Part shown: in pieces, positions 23,157 to 44,672 of the stretch | How the letters are laid out: every line of letters starts with the position of its first letter | How positions within the stretch are numbered: position 1 is the first letter of the stretch | Assembly (NCBI GenBank): GCA_024638965.1 | Contig: JAHEJI010000001.1 | Coordinates: 30,080 to 82,931, forward strand | From: Planctomycetaceae bacterium | GTDB taxonomy: Bacteria; Planctomycetota; Planctomycetia; Pirellulales; Pirellulaceae | Length of the DNA stretch: 52,852 bases | Reading direction: 5' to 3' | The notes under the pieces: generated by a model | What the model was told of the DNA's origin: nothing | Databases searched by the model: none | What the model saw: the letters and a program-made list of their open reading frames with translations, nothing else | Position numbers and translations under genes: made by a program

Positions 23157-23186
23157 AAATATTGATCCTAACAACAGCGAACCTTT

Positions 23187-23219
23187 CGAGTGAACCAGAG
23201 TCTGTTTCTGGTTCACTCG
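23187..23219 (+). promoter_or_regulatory. Perfect 13-bp hairpin between rpoB and rpoC
   Basis: CGAGTGAACCAGA (23187-23199) pairs fully with TCTGGTTCACTCG (23207-23219) around loop GTCTGTT. No T tract follows (CCCAAACAACGG). It resembles an RNase III site, mRNA-stabilising element or protein-binding structure rather than an intrinsic terminator, since rpoC must be transcribed through it. Confidence 0.75.
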
Positions 23220-23257
23220 CCCAAACAACGGTCCAAAACAACAAGGAGCAGGTGACT

Positions 23258-26200
23258 ATGGCAACTGCCGACACCTCATACGATCGAATTAACGACTACG
23301 CATCGGTAAAGATCAGCCTCGCGCGGCCCCACGATATTCGCAGTTGGTCGATGGGCGAAGTCAAGAAACCCGAAACGATTAACTATCGAACCTACCGCCC
23401 GGAAAAAGACGGACTGTTCTGTGAACGGATTTTTGGTCCGGAAAAGGACTGGGAATGTGCCTGCGGCAAATACCGTGGGATGAAATACAAAGGCATGATC
23501 TGCGATCGTTGCGGCGTCAAAGTGACTCACTCGCGTGTGCGTCGCAAACGCATGGGCCACATTGAATTGGCTGCCCCCGTCGTGCATATCTGGTTCTTTA
23601 AAGCGATGCCCAGCCGGCTGGGCAACTTGCTGAACATGAAGACTTCGAGTCTTGAGAAAGTGGTGTATTTCCAGGACTATGTGGTCACCGATCCGGGGAC
23701 GACCGATCTGGAAAAGCAACAACTGCTGACCGAAGAAGAATATCGAGCAGCCAAGGCCCAATATGGCGATGGTAGCTTCACCGCCAACATGGGTGCCGAA
23801 GCCGTTCGGGAACTGTTGTCCGATCTCGACCTTGTCAAACTGTCAGATGATTTGCGCGTTGAACTTGCCGAAACGGGCTCGAAGCAGAAACGAAAAGACT
23901 TCACCAATCGATTGAAAATCGTTGAGTCGATTCGGGATAGCGATAATAAGCCTGAATGGATGGTCCTCGACGTCATCCCCGTCATTCCTCCGGATTTGCG
24001 CCCGCTCGTATTGCTTGATTCTGGCAACTTCGCAACGAGCGATTTGAACGACCTTTATCGCCGTATTATCAATCGTAACAACCGCCTTCGCAAACTTGTC
24101 GACTTGAATGCGCCGGAAGTCATCATTCGAAACGAAAAACGAATGTTGCAACAATCGGTGGACGCCCTGTTTGATAATAACCGCTGCAAGCGACCGGTCC
24201 TCGGAAGTAGCAATCGTCCATTGAAATCTTTGACCGATATGATCAAGGGTAAACAGGGACGTTTCCGTGAAAACCTGTTAGGCAAACGTGTCGATTATTC
24301 GGCTCGTTCGGTCATTGTGGTTGGCCCTCGTCTTAAACTGCACCAATGCGGGTTGCCGAAAAAGATCGCGCTCGAACTTTATCAGCCGTTTATCATCCGC
24401 AAACTGAAAGAACTGGGTCACGCGGACACGATTAAAAGCGCCAAAAAGATGCTTGAGCGCAAGGATGAAGAGGTCTGGGATATTCTTGAGTTTGTGATCC
24501 AGAATCATCCTGTGATGCTCAATCGTGCTCCGACGCTTCACCGCATGGGGATCCAGGCGTTCGAACCAACGCTGGTCGAGGGGAATGCGATTCACCTGCA
24601 TCCGCTGGTCTGCAAAGGATTCAATGCGGACTTCGATGGCGACCAAATGGCGGTTCACCTTCCGCTTTCGATTGAAGCCCAGGTTGAAACTCACACCTTG
24701 ATGCTTTCGACCAATAATATTTTTGCTCCGTCCAATGGTCGGCCGATCATGAGCCCATCGCAGGATACGGTGATGGGCTGTTATTACATCACGCTTGCTC
24801 TCCCGAATCAAAAAGGCGAAGGCATGGTTTTCGCATCACTCGCGGAAGCCGATACCGCGTTTGCACAGAAGGTCATCTCAGTTCACGCTCGAATCAAAGT
24901 GCGATTGCCGAAAGACCGTTTTGTCCGCATCGACGAAGAAAATCGGCTGCCGAGCCAGATTATTGAGACCAGTTACGGTCGCATTCTGTTCAACATGATG
25001 CTTCCTGACGGCATGGATTTTTACAATTATCCGCAGAAAAGTGGTGACCTCGCCGTCGTGATTTCTGATTGTTATCAAGAGTTGGGTCGCCGCGCGACAA
25101 TCAACCTCCTGGATGATATGAATCAGCTCGGTTTCCGCGAGAGTACTCGATCGGGTCTTTCTTTTGCGACCGACGACCTGGTAACGCCGGAATCCAAAGA
25201 GAAGATCGTTGCCGATGCTGAAAAAGAAGTGCTCAAGTTTCGTAAGCATTACGATCGCGGCGTGATCACCGAGCAAGAGCGTTATAACAAGGTCTTGGAT
25301 ACCTGGACGCATGCTCGCGAACAAATCACCAAAGAAATGATGGATGCCATGAAGGAGGATGATCGTGGCGGCCTGGGCTATGTAAATCCAGTGTTTTTAA
25401 TGGCTCATTCGGGTGCTCGTGGTGGTGTCGAACAAATTCGCCAGTTGGCCGGGATGCGGGGCCTGATGGCCAAGCCAACCGGTGAAATCATCGAAACGCC
25501 CATTAAGGCCAACTTCCGCGAAGGCCTGACGGTTCTGGAGTATTTCAGTTCGACACACGGTGCGCGAAAAGGTCTGGCCGATACCGCGCTCAAAACAGCT
25601 GACTCGGGTTACCTGACCCGGAAACTGGCTGACGTCGCGCAAAACGTGGTCATCACGATGGACGATTGTGAAACGACTCGCGGAATTACCAAGGGTGTTA
25701 TTTATCGAGGCGAGCAAGTCGAAGTTCGCTTGGCAACCGCGATCAACGGTCGTGTCTCACGGCAGAATATCGTGAACCCTGTGACGGATGAAGTGATCGT
25801 TCGTGAGAACCAAATGATCACGCCTGAGATCGCGCGGAAGATTGAGGAAATGGGCTTGGAGAAGATCCAGGTGCGAAGTCCGATGACGTGTGCGGCATCA
25901 CTCGGTGTTTGCCGAAAATGCTACGGCATGGACATGTCGACCGGCGCCGAAGTCGAGGAAGGAATGGCCGTCGGAATTATCGCAGCCCAGAGTATTGGTG
26001 AACCCGGTACGCAGTTGACGATGCGGACCTTCCACATCGGTGGTGTCGCGGGTACCGTCACCGAAGAAAGTGAGAAACGAAGTAAGAAGGCGGGTGTCGT
26101 TAAGATTACGCGGATGCGATATGTCACCAACGACAAAGGCCAGACCGTTGTCTTGACCAGAAACGGTGAAATCGCAATTCTCGATCCTCGAGGGCGTGAA

Positions 26201-28584
26201 CTCGAAATCCACAAAGTCCCCGCCGGTGCGTACCTGCATGTCAGTGAGGATCAGGAAATTAAAGAAGGTACGATCCTATGCCAATGGAACCCACACGCCA
26301 TTCCGGTTCTTTCGGAAGTCGCAGGCCGAATTCGCTATGAAGACATCGTCGAAGGCGAAACGATGTCGGAAGAGAAAGATGTCAGTGGAACCGTTCGTCG
26401 AAGTATCATCGACTTCAAAGGCGACATGCATCCGCAGATCGTTGTTGAAGACAGCGATGGTCGACCGCTCGACGTCTATTATCTCCCGGAGCGAGCCCAC
26501 ATCGTGGTCAACGAAGGCGATGAAATCTCCGCTGGTTCGACCGTGGCAGAAGTTCCGCGTGAGGCATCTGGTATTTCCGATATTACCGGTGGCCTTCCTC
26601 GGGTTACCGAGATTTTTGAGGCGCGGAAGCCGAAGGATCCTGCCGTTCTCTCGCAAGTCGACGGGGTCGTCGAAATCTTGAGCGAAAAGAAACGTGGTAA
26701 ACGGACGATCATGGTCAAAAGTGAGGCCGGTGAAGAATATGAACACCTGGTCCCACCGGGAAAAGATTCCGCGTTCACTCCGGTGACTTTGTCAAAGCCG
26801 GTCAACAACTGGTTGACGGCCCGCTGGTTCCTCACGACATTCTCGAAGTTTCCGGTGAAGAGGCGGTTCAGCAATACCTCGTCCACGAGGTTCAGAGCGT
26901 TTATCGAAGTCAACGCGTTGAAATCAACGACAAACACATCGAAATCATCATCGCTCGTATGCTCCGTAAAGTTAAGATCGAAGACGCGGGTGATACAACC
27001 ATGCTCCCAGGTCTGATTTGCGATCGGTTCGACTTCTTGAAAGAGAATGAAAAACTCAGCAAATGCTTGAAGATCAGCGACAAAGGCGACAGTGATTTCG
27101 ACAAAGGTCGTATCGTTCCCAAGTCGGTCATGGAAGAGACAAACTCAAAGATTGAAATGCTGGGCGGCAAACCTGCCAAGGGGGGCAAGCCAAAACCTGC
27201 GACATTCAGCACTCAGCTACTGGGAATCACAAAAGCGTCCGTGCAAAGTTCGAGCTTCATATCGGCCGCCAGTTTCCAGGAAACAACCAAGGTGTTGACC
27301 GAAGCCGCACTCGGCGGAAAAGTCGACAACCTCGTCGGTCTTAAAGAAAACGTGATCCTGGGACACTTGATTCCTGCCGGTACGGGTTTCCGCACCTTCC
27401 AGGAATCGGAAGTCCAATACAACCTCGAAGCGATGCGCGAAATTGCCTCTGCTCCTTCGAAGGCACTGGAAACTAGCTTTCCGTTGTTGGAATCAGGTAG
27501 TACCGATGGAACTTCGATGCAAGCTCAGCAGTCTCAAGGTTTTAGCCAGCCGTCGACAACTAGTTCGCTGGATGAACTGATGGGTAACGCCGGCGCTCAA
27601 ATGGAAATGGCGGGTGTTCAAGATGCCCCGTCGACCATTGATATGACACAAGATACGATTCCAACCGATTTTGGGTCACCTTCCGATATGGGTTTGGGAT
27701 CAGTCCCGCCGACAGAAGAAACGGGACTTGCAATGGGCGGAGGTGGCTCTATTGGAGATGGGCCAATCATCCATGAGGCTTTGCCAAAAGATGATCTCAC
27801 CCTGATCGAAGGGATTGGTCCCAAAATCGCCGAGCTATTAAATTCGGCCGGAATCACGACCTATACTCATTTGGAAGCGAGTTCACCCGATCATCTCCGC
27901 CAAATTCTGGCGACTGCTGGTGGTAGTTTCACCGTCCATGATCCTGAAACCTGGCCTCCTCAAGCGGCTCTGGCGGTAGCGGGCGAGTGGGACAGACTGA
28001 AAGCATGGCAAGACTCGCTTCACGGCGGTGTCGAGACAGTCGCATCAACTGGCGTTCATGAAGACCTCACTCAGATTGAAGGAGTCGGTCCGAGAATTCA
28101 GGAACTATTATATGGACAGGGAATCACCTCCTATTCCCAGTTGACAGCAACCGATCCCGATTTGATTCGTCAAATCCTGGTCGGATCCGGAATGGCCGCG
28201 CACGATCCTTCTACGTGGCCAGCCCAGGCGGCTCTGGCGGCCAATAACGAATGGGATAAGCTCAAAGAATGGCAGGATCAGCTGGACGGTGGCCGTTCAG
28301 CCGATCAGGTTGACACTGCTGCTGAGCAACCTCAGGAGAATTTGCAGGCCATCGAAGGGATTGGCCCGACCATCGAAAAATTGCTGTATGCGGGGGGAAT
28401 TACGAGTTACGCGGTACTCGGTGCGACCGACGTCAGCCGTATTCAGGAAATTCTCGTTGAGGCAGGTGGTCTGCTGGCAACCAGAGACCCTTCGACTTGG
28501 CCCGATCAAGCCAAATTGGCTGCCGCTGGTGAATGGGACAAACTCAAGGCTTGGCAAGACGAGTTGGACGGCGGAATTGCCTGA
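23258..28584 (+). CDS. rpoC: RNA polymerase subunit beta', -1 frameshift and triple H3TH tail
   Basis: Catalytic beta' subunit; 1775 residues if read with one -1 shift. AAGGAG lies 9 bases before ATG 23258. Landmarks: N-terminal zinc site Cys67/69/82/85; active-site NADFDGD (456-462, Asp458/460/462); second zinc site near '[12 protein letters not shown]'; an SI3-like insertion (about 931-1107). The frame runs open to a stop at 27016, but homology leaves it at '[10 protein letters not shown]' (residue 1169) and resumes in the -1 frame as '[19 protein letters not shown]'. The -1 frame is open to 28584. Conventional beta' ends near residue 1405; a polar linker and three repeats of about 80 residues (starting near 1512, 1602 and 1693) follow. 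Each has a DLxxIEGIGPxIxxLL helix-hairpin-helix and a 'DPSTWPxQAxLAAxxEWDKL' segment, like COG3743 H3TH domains. Confidence 0.9.
26758..26764 (+). other. Slippery heptamer G GGA AAA at the rpoC frame change
   Basis: In the incoming frame the codons are CCG GGA AAA GAT. The heptamer fits X XXY YYZ; after a -1 slip the codons read GGG AAA AGA TTC CGC, giving G-K-R-F-R. Possible stimulators downstream are CCGGTGAC/GTCA-AAG-CCGG (26780-26801, 15 bases after the heptamer) and GTCAAC/GTTGAC (26801-26817). No Shine-Dalgarno-like stimulator is obvious upstream. A missing A in the A run would give the same frame relation. Confidence 0.7.
27790..28578 (+). repeat. Three tandem H3TH/HhH repeats encoded in the rpoC tail
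   Basis: Coding repeats begin at 27790, 28060 and 28333 (periods about 270 bases). Each encodes a helix-hairpin-helix with 'IEGIGP' or 'IEGVGP', an 'GITxY' turn, a Trp-Pro motif 'TWPxQA' and a closing 'EWDxLKxWQDxLxGG'. The DNA copies have diverged, so the duplication is old and kept at protein level. Confidence 0.9.
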
Positions 28585-42521: not shown

Positions 42522-44672
42522 CTAGGCAGCTTTTCGGCGCTTCGCAAAATAGAATCTGGCCGCTTGGCCGATCCAGTCATCGCGGTCAATTCGGTCCTTG
42601 AATGCCAGCAGAGTCGAGAATTCTTGAACTGTTTTATCTTCCCAATGCATTATTTGCTTGAAAGTGTAAATACCGTATTCATTCAGCCGTTTTTCAAGCA
42701 CTTCTGCAATTCCCGAGATTAGCTTCAAATCGTCTGGCGAATTTGGAGCTTCGTCGTAGACCACACCTCGTTTAGCATCTCGGCGCGTCCGTCCACCGTA
42801 CTCCGAATCAACCTGCTCACCAAACTGTAGAATAACGGCCTGACTTTGATCCTGGCTAAGTGTGTTAATCTCCGCTCGCAAGGCTTCGATTTCTTTTCGC
42901 TGGTTTTGAAGATCCGAAAATGCCTGATCACGCTGAACAATCAGTGCGTTGACGCGCGTTTTGATTTCCTCGTTTTGATATCGAGACATTTCGTCCGATT
43001 GCGAAGTATGCAATTCAGCTTGCAATAGTCGAGCTGACAATTCATTGCGTTCTTGTCGCAAAGCATCGATTTCCATCACTCGCTGTTCAAGCAGTGAAGA
43101 TCCGCGCGAATAGTTTTCTTTGAGCGAGTTCAGTTGTTGTCGCAGCTCATCACGTTCGAGAGCCAAAGACGCGTTCTCGGAACGGAACGATTCAAGCTCC
43201 GAAGACAGCTCATCTCGTTTTGATTTGATTTTTTCAAGTTCCAGCGAGCGTTCTTTGAGACGCGTGGTGCTTTCCGAGTGGTTCTGCTGTAGTCGAGTCA
43301 GACCAGATGCCAACTGGTCTCGTTCGCTGGTTAATTGGGCAATTTCTGCCGCCCGTTCCTCCAGTCGACTCGCTGCCCGCATTTGACTTTGTTCCATGGT
43401 TGCAATCTGCGTCGCAAGCTGGTCGCAGGCCCGGTTCGCCTTGGCGATCTCCGCTGTTCGCTGTTCCAGCTGGCTGGTTGCCTGCTCAGAAGCATTTTCC
43501 ATCTCTTGAATTCTGGATGTCAATTCACCACGTTCGCGTTCCAGCTGCTCAATCTCCGTCCGGATTTCGTGGATCTCGGATTGCATTTGGTGTTTCACAT
43601 CTTTGGCGGAGGCCTCGATTTCCAGTCGAGAGTCTCTTTCATCGCGCATCTGGATTGCAAAGTCGTCTGATTTTTCTCGCAACTGCCGAATGGTCTGTTC
43701 CTGATTTTCAAGACGTGTTCGCAATGCCGAAATCGTCTCGTTAAGTTCCTTCTGGGCAAGCAGCGAGCTGTCACGTTGAGCCGTCAATTGATGCAAGCGA
43801 TCCTGGCTGTTTTCGAGAGATTGTTCCAAGGAAACACAACGAAGCTTGACAGCTTCAGAGGCGGCGGTCGTCTCCTCAATCTTGGACAACAACAGCTGTT
43901 GATCTTCAAGTTGATTTCGCGCGTCGCGCAGCGATTCTTCGGCAAGTTTTTTGGCCGACAACGCGGCCGCACACTGGCCACGTGATTCCTTCAACAGCTC
44001 ACTATGGCTGCGCAGCGAACTCTCTAGCGAGACGTATTCTTTTTCGAGCCCGTTTTCGTTTTGACGCGCCGTCAGCAACAGCGAATTCAGTGTCGCCAGC
44101 TCGGACTGTAGCTCGGCGATTTGAGCCTCGGCAGCATGTAACTTCTCTGCCGCACGCTCATTTTCAACAGTAAGCTGTTTGACATCCGTGGTCCGGTGTA
44201 GCAGATCGGTCTCCAACCGTTTATGCTTCTGACGCCATTCATTGTCGACCTGGCCTAGTTGTTCAAGATTTCTCTGTTGTTCCTGATGAAGTTGATCTTC
44301 AGTCGTCATCCGCTGATGTTTTTCTTCGTCCAGCTGAATTTGCGTTTCTTCGAGCCGCTTTCGGCTGGAACAAATGTCTGCCTCGAGAGCAACGCGGTCC
44401 AGTTGAAACTGTTCGCGTCCGGCCGCCAGATCATCGCAAAGTTCCTGGAGAATATGCAGCTTGCCCTTCTGACTGGAAAGATCATTAATTAGAGAGCTGT
44501 GTTCGATTTTGTACTGTTTCAACGAAGCCAAAAGGTCTTCATTGTCCTGTTGCAGTTGCGATTGAAGCGCATCATCTTGTGTACGATCACGGTACCACAA
44601 GAAGTAGCCAATCAGCATTCCTGCGAGTACGAGGAACAGACCTGTCAGTATGGGCATAATTGTTTCGGGCAT
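42522..44672 (-). CDS. Membrane-anchored coiled-coil protein with C-terminal H3TH domain
   Basis: 716 residues. Residues 6-27 form one transmembrane helix ('ILTGLFLVLAGMLIGYFLW'). About 35-610 are a continuous coiled coil rich in Gln, Glu, Leu and Arg with internal heptad-like repeats ('LTSERDQLASGLTRLQ', 'LEQRTAEIAKANRACDQLA'). The C-terminal 70 residues (from about 647, 'DDLKLISGIAEVLEKRLNEYG') resemble the helix-hairpin-helix/H3TH domain repeated in the rpoC tail. The coiled coil could extend the C-terminal DNA-binding-like domain from the membrane into the cytoplasm, for example in nucleoid organisation (inference). No function is established. Confidence 0.8.
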   Translation of the reverse strand: MPETIMPILTGLFLVLAGMLIGYFLWYRDRTQDDALQSQLQQDNEDLLASLKQYKIEHSSLINDLSSQKGKLHILQELCDDLAAGREQFQLDRVALEADICSSRKRLEETQIQLDEEKHQRMTTEDQLHQEQQRNLEQLGQVDNEWRQKHKRLETDLLHRTTDVKQLTVENERAAEKLHAAEAQIAELQSELATLNSLLLTARQNENGLEKEYVSLESSLRSHSELLKESRGQCAAALSAKKLAEESLRDARNQLEDQQLLLSKIEETTAASEAVKLRCVSLEQSLENSQDRLHQLTAQRDSSLLAQKELNETISALRTRLENQEQTIRQLREKSDDFAIQMRDERDSRLEIEASAKDVKHQMQSEIHEIRTEIEQLERERGELTSRIQEMENASEQATSQLEQRTAEIAKANRACDQLATQIATMEQSQMRAASRLEERAAEIAQLTSERDQLASGLTRLQQNHSESTTRLKERSLELEKIKSKRDELSSELESFRSENASLALERDELRQQLNSLKENYSRGSSLLEQRVMEIDALRQERNELSARLLQAELHTSQSDEMSRYQNEEIKTRVNALIVQRDQAFSDLQNQRKEIEALRAEINTLSQDQSQAVILQFGEQVDSEYGGRTRRDAKRGVVYDEAPNSPDDLKLISGIAEVLEKRLNEYGIYTFKQIMHWEDKTVQEFSTLLAFKDRIDRDDWIGQAARFYFAKRRKAA

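Follow-up and report, generated by a model that had tools for sequence, protein, structure and literature searches.

A 716-codon gene of the marine planctomycete Mariniblastus (Pirellulaceae) encodes a predicted inner-membrane tether with a single N-terminal membrane helix, a coiled coil of some 580 residues and a C-terminal helix-hairpin-helix-like domain, which profile and tree place as a homologue of the repeats that end RpoC in the same genome, but of another subtype. We call the tether subtype T1 and the RpoC subtype T2. The architecture, the conservation of both ends around a variable coil, the homology to the RpoC repeats as a separate subtype and the loss of a hairpin glycine were all computed. 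In the most economical account, to which we give about an even chance, the single helix would anchor the protein in the inner membrane and the T1 domain would act as a protein-docking head; RNA polymerase is one candidate partner, a guess that is testable. The gene lies in the window (the whole stretch of DNA analysed, 52,852 nucleotides), with the following features.

42522..44672, reverse strand: tether gene of 716 codons, with membrane helix, long coiled coil and C-terminal T1 domain (open reading frame, translation, orthologue matches, dN/dS).
44592..44651, reverse strand: N-terminal membrane helix, about residues 8–27 (hydropathy peak).
44427..44465, reverse strand: conserved box that opens the coil, residues 70–82, GKLHILQELCDDL (N-terminal orthologue alignment).
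42843..44582, reverse strand: coiled-coil region, residues 31–610 (Pro/Gly content, heptad power, 35-residue identity peak).
42744..42770, reverse strand: conserved segment preceding the domain, residues 635–643, RGVVYDEAP (alignment A1, below).
42525..42734, reverse strand: T1 helix-hairpin-helix-like domain, residues 647–716, hairpin GIAE (NCBIfam tails, RpoC-repeat profile match, model).

A reading of the DNA made earlier without database searches (hereafter the sequence-only reading) had noted that the last 70 residues of the 716-residue reading frame start with DDLKLISGI and contain GIYTFKQI, which the translation confirms; its membrane-tethering coiled coil of nearly 600 residues is backed by the hydropathy peak, heptad power and Pro/Gly content. 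The hydropathy peak, at residues 8–26, is the only one in the protein and is followed by YRDR. In 21 of 24 orthologues (G007 and G024, which are without the N-terminus, are excluded from this count) the membrane helix is flanked by more Lys and Arg on its C side than on its N side, so that the positive-inside rule predicts an N-out/C-in orientation, with the rest of the protein cytoplasmic. Residues 31–610 include no Pro and 8 Gly; power at 3.5 residues is 0.110, as compared with 0.070 ± 0.007 (maximum 0.093) in 300 shuffles, and the autocorrelation of residue identity peaks at 35 residues, or five heptads. A helix rises 0.1485 nm per residue; if straight and continuous, the 580-residue coil, predicted to be cytoplasmic, could thus reach ∼86 nm, and would carry one T1 domain at its tip. 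Between the gene and its counterpart in the near relative G024, dN is 0.024 and dS 0.115 (532 shared residues, 94.7% identical).

A whole-protein search found matches in 24 of the 27 other genomes of the genus (in all counts, Mariniblastus); no tether was detected in G019, G023 and G027, whose assemblies are incomplete, and the match in G014 is a 104-aa end fragment only. Outside the genus, the same search matched 2 of 32 genomes, G031 and G033. Orthologues have kept the membrane helix, the nearby box (GQLNVLQQLCDDW in many) and the C-terminal 80 residues, and in the segment before the domain G4 and P11 are invariant in all 26 rows of A1, the alignment of tether domains from which the G014 fragment was left out. 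Reading frames range from 319 to 921 aa, with both ends conserved and the coil variable in length; in the longest, the 921-aa frame of G026, the membrane helix comes at residue 122, and this frame is probably over-extended. No neighbouring gene is common to all 26 loci and the window, and gene context therefore allows no partner to be deduced. Close genomes have local neighbours in common in sets of two to five, and one neighbour cluster is present in nine loci at varying positions, with a 3-keto-disaccharide hydrolase match in both members tested. Among the top-listed papers, judged by their listings, we found none on this membrane coiled-coil protein.

The three repeats that the sequence-only reading had placed on RNA polymerase are there: the C-terminal rpoC reading frame has GITTY, GITSY and GITSY where the tether has GIYTFKQI. 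In the window they lie as follows.

27790..28029, forward strand: RpoC tail repeat 1, T2, hairpin GIGP.
28060..28293, forward strand: RpoC tail repeat 2, T2, hairpin GVGP.
28336..28575, forward strand: RpoC tail repeat 3, T2, hairpin GIGP.

The tail repeats match PF14520 (HHH_5). Both the RpoC core and the tail repeats were detected in 26 of the 28 genus genomes, including that of the window (not shown in G012 and G014). The 32 genomes outside the genus gave RpoC core matches only, with no tail repeats on RpoC, and the T2 profile found just two weak places among them, in the G033 tether and in G042. Counted by profile rather than by a pattern requiring GhG, 68 repeats come from 21 of the 28 genus genomes, the tails of seven being left out; most genomes have three or four, G009 has two and G027, with a broken frame, one. 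Tandem acidic helix-hairpin-helix repeats ending RpoC in a genus look like a finding of their own: we found no paper on helix-hairpin-helix in the RpoC of Planctomycetes, and none on a C-terminal RpoC extension of planctomycete RNA polymerase. A three-row model of the repeat (pLDDT 61) was too poor for use. In the window the rpoC frame is broken near 26.76 kb (26700–27020; open reading frames 23162–27016 and 26959–28584). The break probably stems from an error in sequencing or from a recent change, because in the close relative G024, at 97.5% DNA identity, rpoC is one open frame of 1808 aa.

Profile–profile comparison of A1 with the RpoC repeats (A2, 17 rows) was significant, with 97% probability and E 8.6e-11; the score, 56.8, lies above all of 200 column-shuffled controls (maximum 18.3) and above a reversed profile (13.5). 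A broader T1 alignment, A3, gave 98.5% probability and E 1.6e-15 against the RpoC repeats. Its 64 rows derive from 80 T1 loci, the best 80 of 231 confirmed by the T1 profile, of which 17 were left out, being near copies or one of two giant proteins made of repeats, L145 and L152. A tree of 96 domains, built on 66 columns and poor in its inner forks, splits these 64 T1 rows from 32 T2 rows with support 100/100 and places the window domain with T1, not with T2. The second half of T2, DP.TWP.QA...WD.L..WQ.ELDGG, is absent from the window domain. Described earlier as a divergent copy of the RpoC-tail domain, the tether domain is thus homologous to it by profile match, but the tree makes it a member of a separate subtype rather than a diverged RpoC repeat.

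T1 is a widespread accessory domain with a helix-hairpin-helix fold. The isolated window domain matches NCBIfam families of NuoE (NF009040, E 3.1e-17), L21 (NF008915 and NF008916, E 3.1e-15), PhaH (NF045508, E 4e-12) and S2 (NF008966, E 1.5e-11), with scores that all fall below the whole-protein cut-offs because only the tail of the host protein matches. Two PDB chains have the T1 sequence, 9wqv (complex I 41 kDa subunit, E 2.1e-10) and 8yy9 chain O (E 7.1e-8). Among the fetched loci, Pfam identified some T1 hosts as a NuoE-type 2Fe-2S protein (L137), L21 (L144, L163) and S2 (L167), and in the verrucomicrobial record L125 as the membrane subunit NuoJ (PF00499), so that the complex I subunit that bears T1 differs between phyla. 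The hosts of T1 include subunits of complex I and of a photosystem, ribosomal proteins and membrane tethers. Pfam gave no match to the isolated domain at E ≤ 1, and its matches to the whole tether protein were all below their cut-offs. We found no paper linking the C-terminal extension of NuoE to helix-hairpin-helix, nor one on helix-hairpin-helix in RC-LH1.

Other arrangements were seen in passing. In the verrucomicrobial proteins L125, L128 and L133 a C-terminal T1 is combined with membrane helices, of which four or five are predicted, and the giant verrucomicrobial frames L145 and L152 (at least 2168 and 2823 aa) have 19 and 23 tandem T1 domains. In one planctomycete family (L104, L106, L109) HlyD-type membrane fusion proteins have an N-terminal T1-like domain ahead of a membrane helix; the hairpin of this domain is changed too, and 6 of 197 other genomes of the class were matched, three of the six being inspected. 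Relatives have further T1- or T2-bearing proteins (L234–L241, L244), several with a predicted membrane helix (e.g. L236, L237, L241, L244). None of these turned up in the window's own genome (assembly 88.6% complete), where the four places of the T1 profile at E ≤ 0.001 are the tether and the three RpoC repeats.

The T1 hairpin of the tethers is altered. The second GhG glycine is missing in 25 of the 26 A1 rows (GIAE, as in the window, GIAT, GITE and similar) and kept only in G033 (GIGQ); the RpoC repeats have GIGP or GVGP in 68 of 68 cases (21 of 28 genus genomes). Among the 64 A3 rows, from the best 80 of 231 loci and grouped by record title (L186, titled Thalassovita, counted with Bacteroidota), GhGP is absent from all 19 planctomycete rows, present in 4 of the 10 from Verrucomicrobiota and universal in the 11 from alphaproteobacteria; in the Bacteroidota group 23 of 24 rows have it and one has GIGS. 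Loss of the hairpin therefore tracks lineage, not membrane anchoring as such. The mean net charge of the RpoC repeats is −7.7 (−10 to −5, 57 distinct) and that of the 62-residue T1 core −3.0 (26 rows, −5 to 0). Of the sequence-only interpretation, homology and membrane tether stand as computed, but a DNA target shared by T1 and T2 is poorly supported, given the 25 of 26 tether domains without the second glycine and the acidity of the RpoC repeats.

We consider it unlikely that T1 binds DNA without sequence preference and so links nucleoid and membrane, as the sequence-only reading had suggested. DNA-binding members do exist in the fold family, the nearest sequence-profile matches after the T1 chains are to DNA polymerase IV, in its thumb (E 0.011–0.014), and the window domain with its basic C-terminal end, KRRK, has a net charge of +1. 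Nevertheless, that end is not kept (full-domain charge −5 to +2 across 26 rows), 24 of the 26 cores are acidic and the other 2 neutral, and the glycine that is missing belongs to the GXG called essential for duplex contact in a review (PMC6320978). FAAP24 is described as keeping its GhG hairpin at the putative DNA site (PMC3905867); passages of PMC3581485 concern another domain.

Less likely still, in our estimate, is self-association, in which T1 heads pair or cluster and the protein forms a structural scaffold or filament beneath the membrane. Domains of the same fold pair in ERCC1–XPF, according to the same review (PMC6320978), the coil is long with a 35-residue period, and beyond the weak RpoC matches the window's own genome has one T1 copy (E ≤ 0.001). 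T1 also sits, however, on NuoE, NuoJ, L21 and S2. For these hosts we know of no tip-to-tip assembly.

The AlphaFold2 model of T1 (pLDDT 88.4, pTM 0.79) found nothing with Foldseek at E ≤ 0.001, and chains 9wqv and 8yy9, which have the T1 sequence, are not among the Foldseek matches listed. In a second structural comparison, with 48 chains, NusA of Planctomyces limnophilus came first (Z 7.6, 78 residues, rmsd 2.9) and NusA AR2 next (Z 6.4, 63 residues, rmsd 2.6), with mitoribosome chains, polymerase iota and Rad51 close behind as near ties; all neighbours lie below Z 8, where by the tool's own note likeness may reflect common arrangement only. The modelled fold weakly resembles the NusA acidic repeats, a protein-binding module; according to PMC6614801, the dual helix-hairpin-helix domain AR2 has SuhB and the alpha-CTD of RNA polymerase as binding partners.

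With its DNA-gripping loop lost, the T1 tip more likely docks onto a protein, possibly a carrier of the sister domain, and we lean towards protein rather than DNA as the target. T1 in this lineage has given up the glycine hairpin used for DNA, and most likely docks onto protein as the NusA acidic repeats do. A docking head is favoured by the two conserved ends in frames of 319–921 aa, the charge bias at the membrane helix (21 of 24), the hairpin loss (25 of 26), the slightly acidic core, NusA as best structural neighbour among the 48 chains, and the presence of T1 as the terminal domain in other assemblies that are large or membrane-bound (NuoE, NuoJ, L21, S2, photosystem protein-O). Against it stand the empty Foldseek result at E ≤ 0.001, Z values below 8 with DNA-contacting folds (Rad51, polymerase iota) nearby, a window-domain charge of +1 that does not disfavour DNA, a profile match to NusA (E 0.15) that falls behind DNA polymerase IV, and the failure of BLASTP to align T1 with the tail of the genome's own NusA.

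In Mariniblastus, T1 is on the membrane tether and T2 on RNA polymerase; elsewhere both occur on one chain, in 16 of the 80 T1 host proteins (best 80 of 231 loci). The 16 records are titled Saprospiraceae, Chitinophagales or Phaeodactylibacter (Bacteroidota), and 12 of them have an N-terminal membrane helix predicted at the threshold used. Being joined in this way points to roles that are related, or to membership of one complex, and is not proof that T1 binds T2. A membrane–transcription link through protein contacts is possible and gains indirect support from these fusions. Its specific form, in which the T1 head at the end of a ∼80-nm coil holds the acidic T2 repeats of RpoC and transcription would therefore run on a leash from the envelope, is the least likely of the readings considered here, and we regard it as doubtful. 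In the genus, the RpoC tail (26 of 28 genomes, against 0 of 32 outside) and the tether (24 of 27) occur together, as they do in the genomes of L111 and L124, and the contact of NusA AR2 with the alpha-CTD is a precedent (PMC6614801). Among 149 Bacteroidia genomes, each place being given by hand to its better-scoring profile, 5 have T1 and 9 have T2, 3 being common to the two sets; with the chosen genome left out, the 148 divide into 2 with both, 2 with T1 only, 6 with T2 only and 138 with neither (Fisher p 0.015, uncorrected for ancestry). However, the genus pattern is one evolutionary event, a fused chain may mean two separate ligands, the Pirellulaceae G031 and G033 lack a true T2 although they have T1 tethers, and G019, G023 and G027 have the RpoC tail with no tether detected in their incomplete assemblies. 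Furthermore, the rpoC frame is near-complete (1435–1468 aa) in seven Bacteroidota genomes, none of which has a T2 place on it. If T1 and T2 do bind, a group of budding bacteria would have a physical link between transcription and membrane; the split here and the natural fusions elsewhere offer, through binding, a direct experimental way into the role of the domain.

Compared with the tether domain, the RpoC-tail repeats share a homologous first half, DDL..I.G.......L...GI.(S/T)(F/Y), and differ in their own second half, the GhGP hairpin and strong acidity. NusA AR2 is acidic and weakly similar in fold (Z 6.4 over 63 residues, below the tool's caution level), and the genome's own NusA tail, read by eye, likewise has no evident GhG; NusA differs in being a soluble elongation factor whose tail gives no BLASTP alignment. 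The tails of NuoE, L21, PhaH and S2 are the same domain by profile over its whole length and are C-terminal as in the tether, whose host is in contrast a membrane coiled coil and whose hairpin is GIAE instead of GhGP. Protein-O of the Dinoroseobacter shibae RC-LH1 (8yy9 chain O; PMC12079452) also combines a membrane anchor with a C-terminal T1, but has two short membrane helices within the photosystem and a flexible loop instead of a long coil, and keeps a GVGP hairpin. In that paper only residues 8–59 of protein-O are traceable, the T1 part being untraced; its authors remark that NuoE and other proteins have the C-terminal domain too, and call the functions of such domains obscure (PMC12079452). 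Saprospiraceae proteins such as L156, L169 and L185, records of no named family, likewise have a membrane helix, a coil and T1. They tentatively share with the tether an N-terminal signature, GLL.G.LLW.R, which in four Bacteroidota proteins scores 18.2–28.2 bits, each above the best of its own 100 shuffles (15.5–19.3), and which is tentative because coil composition is common to both sides. Unlike the tether, they keep GhG in T1 and carry T2 after or before it on the same chain.
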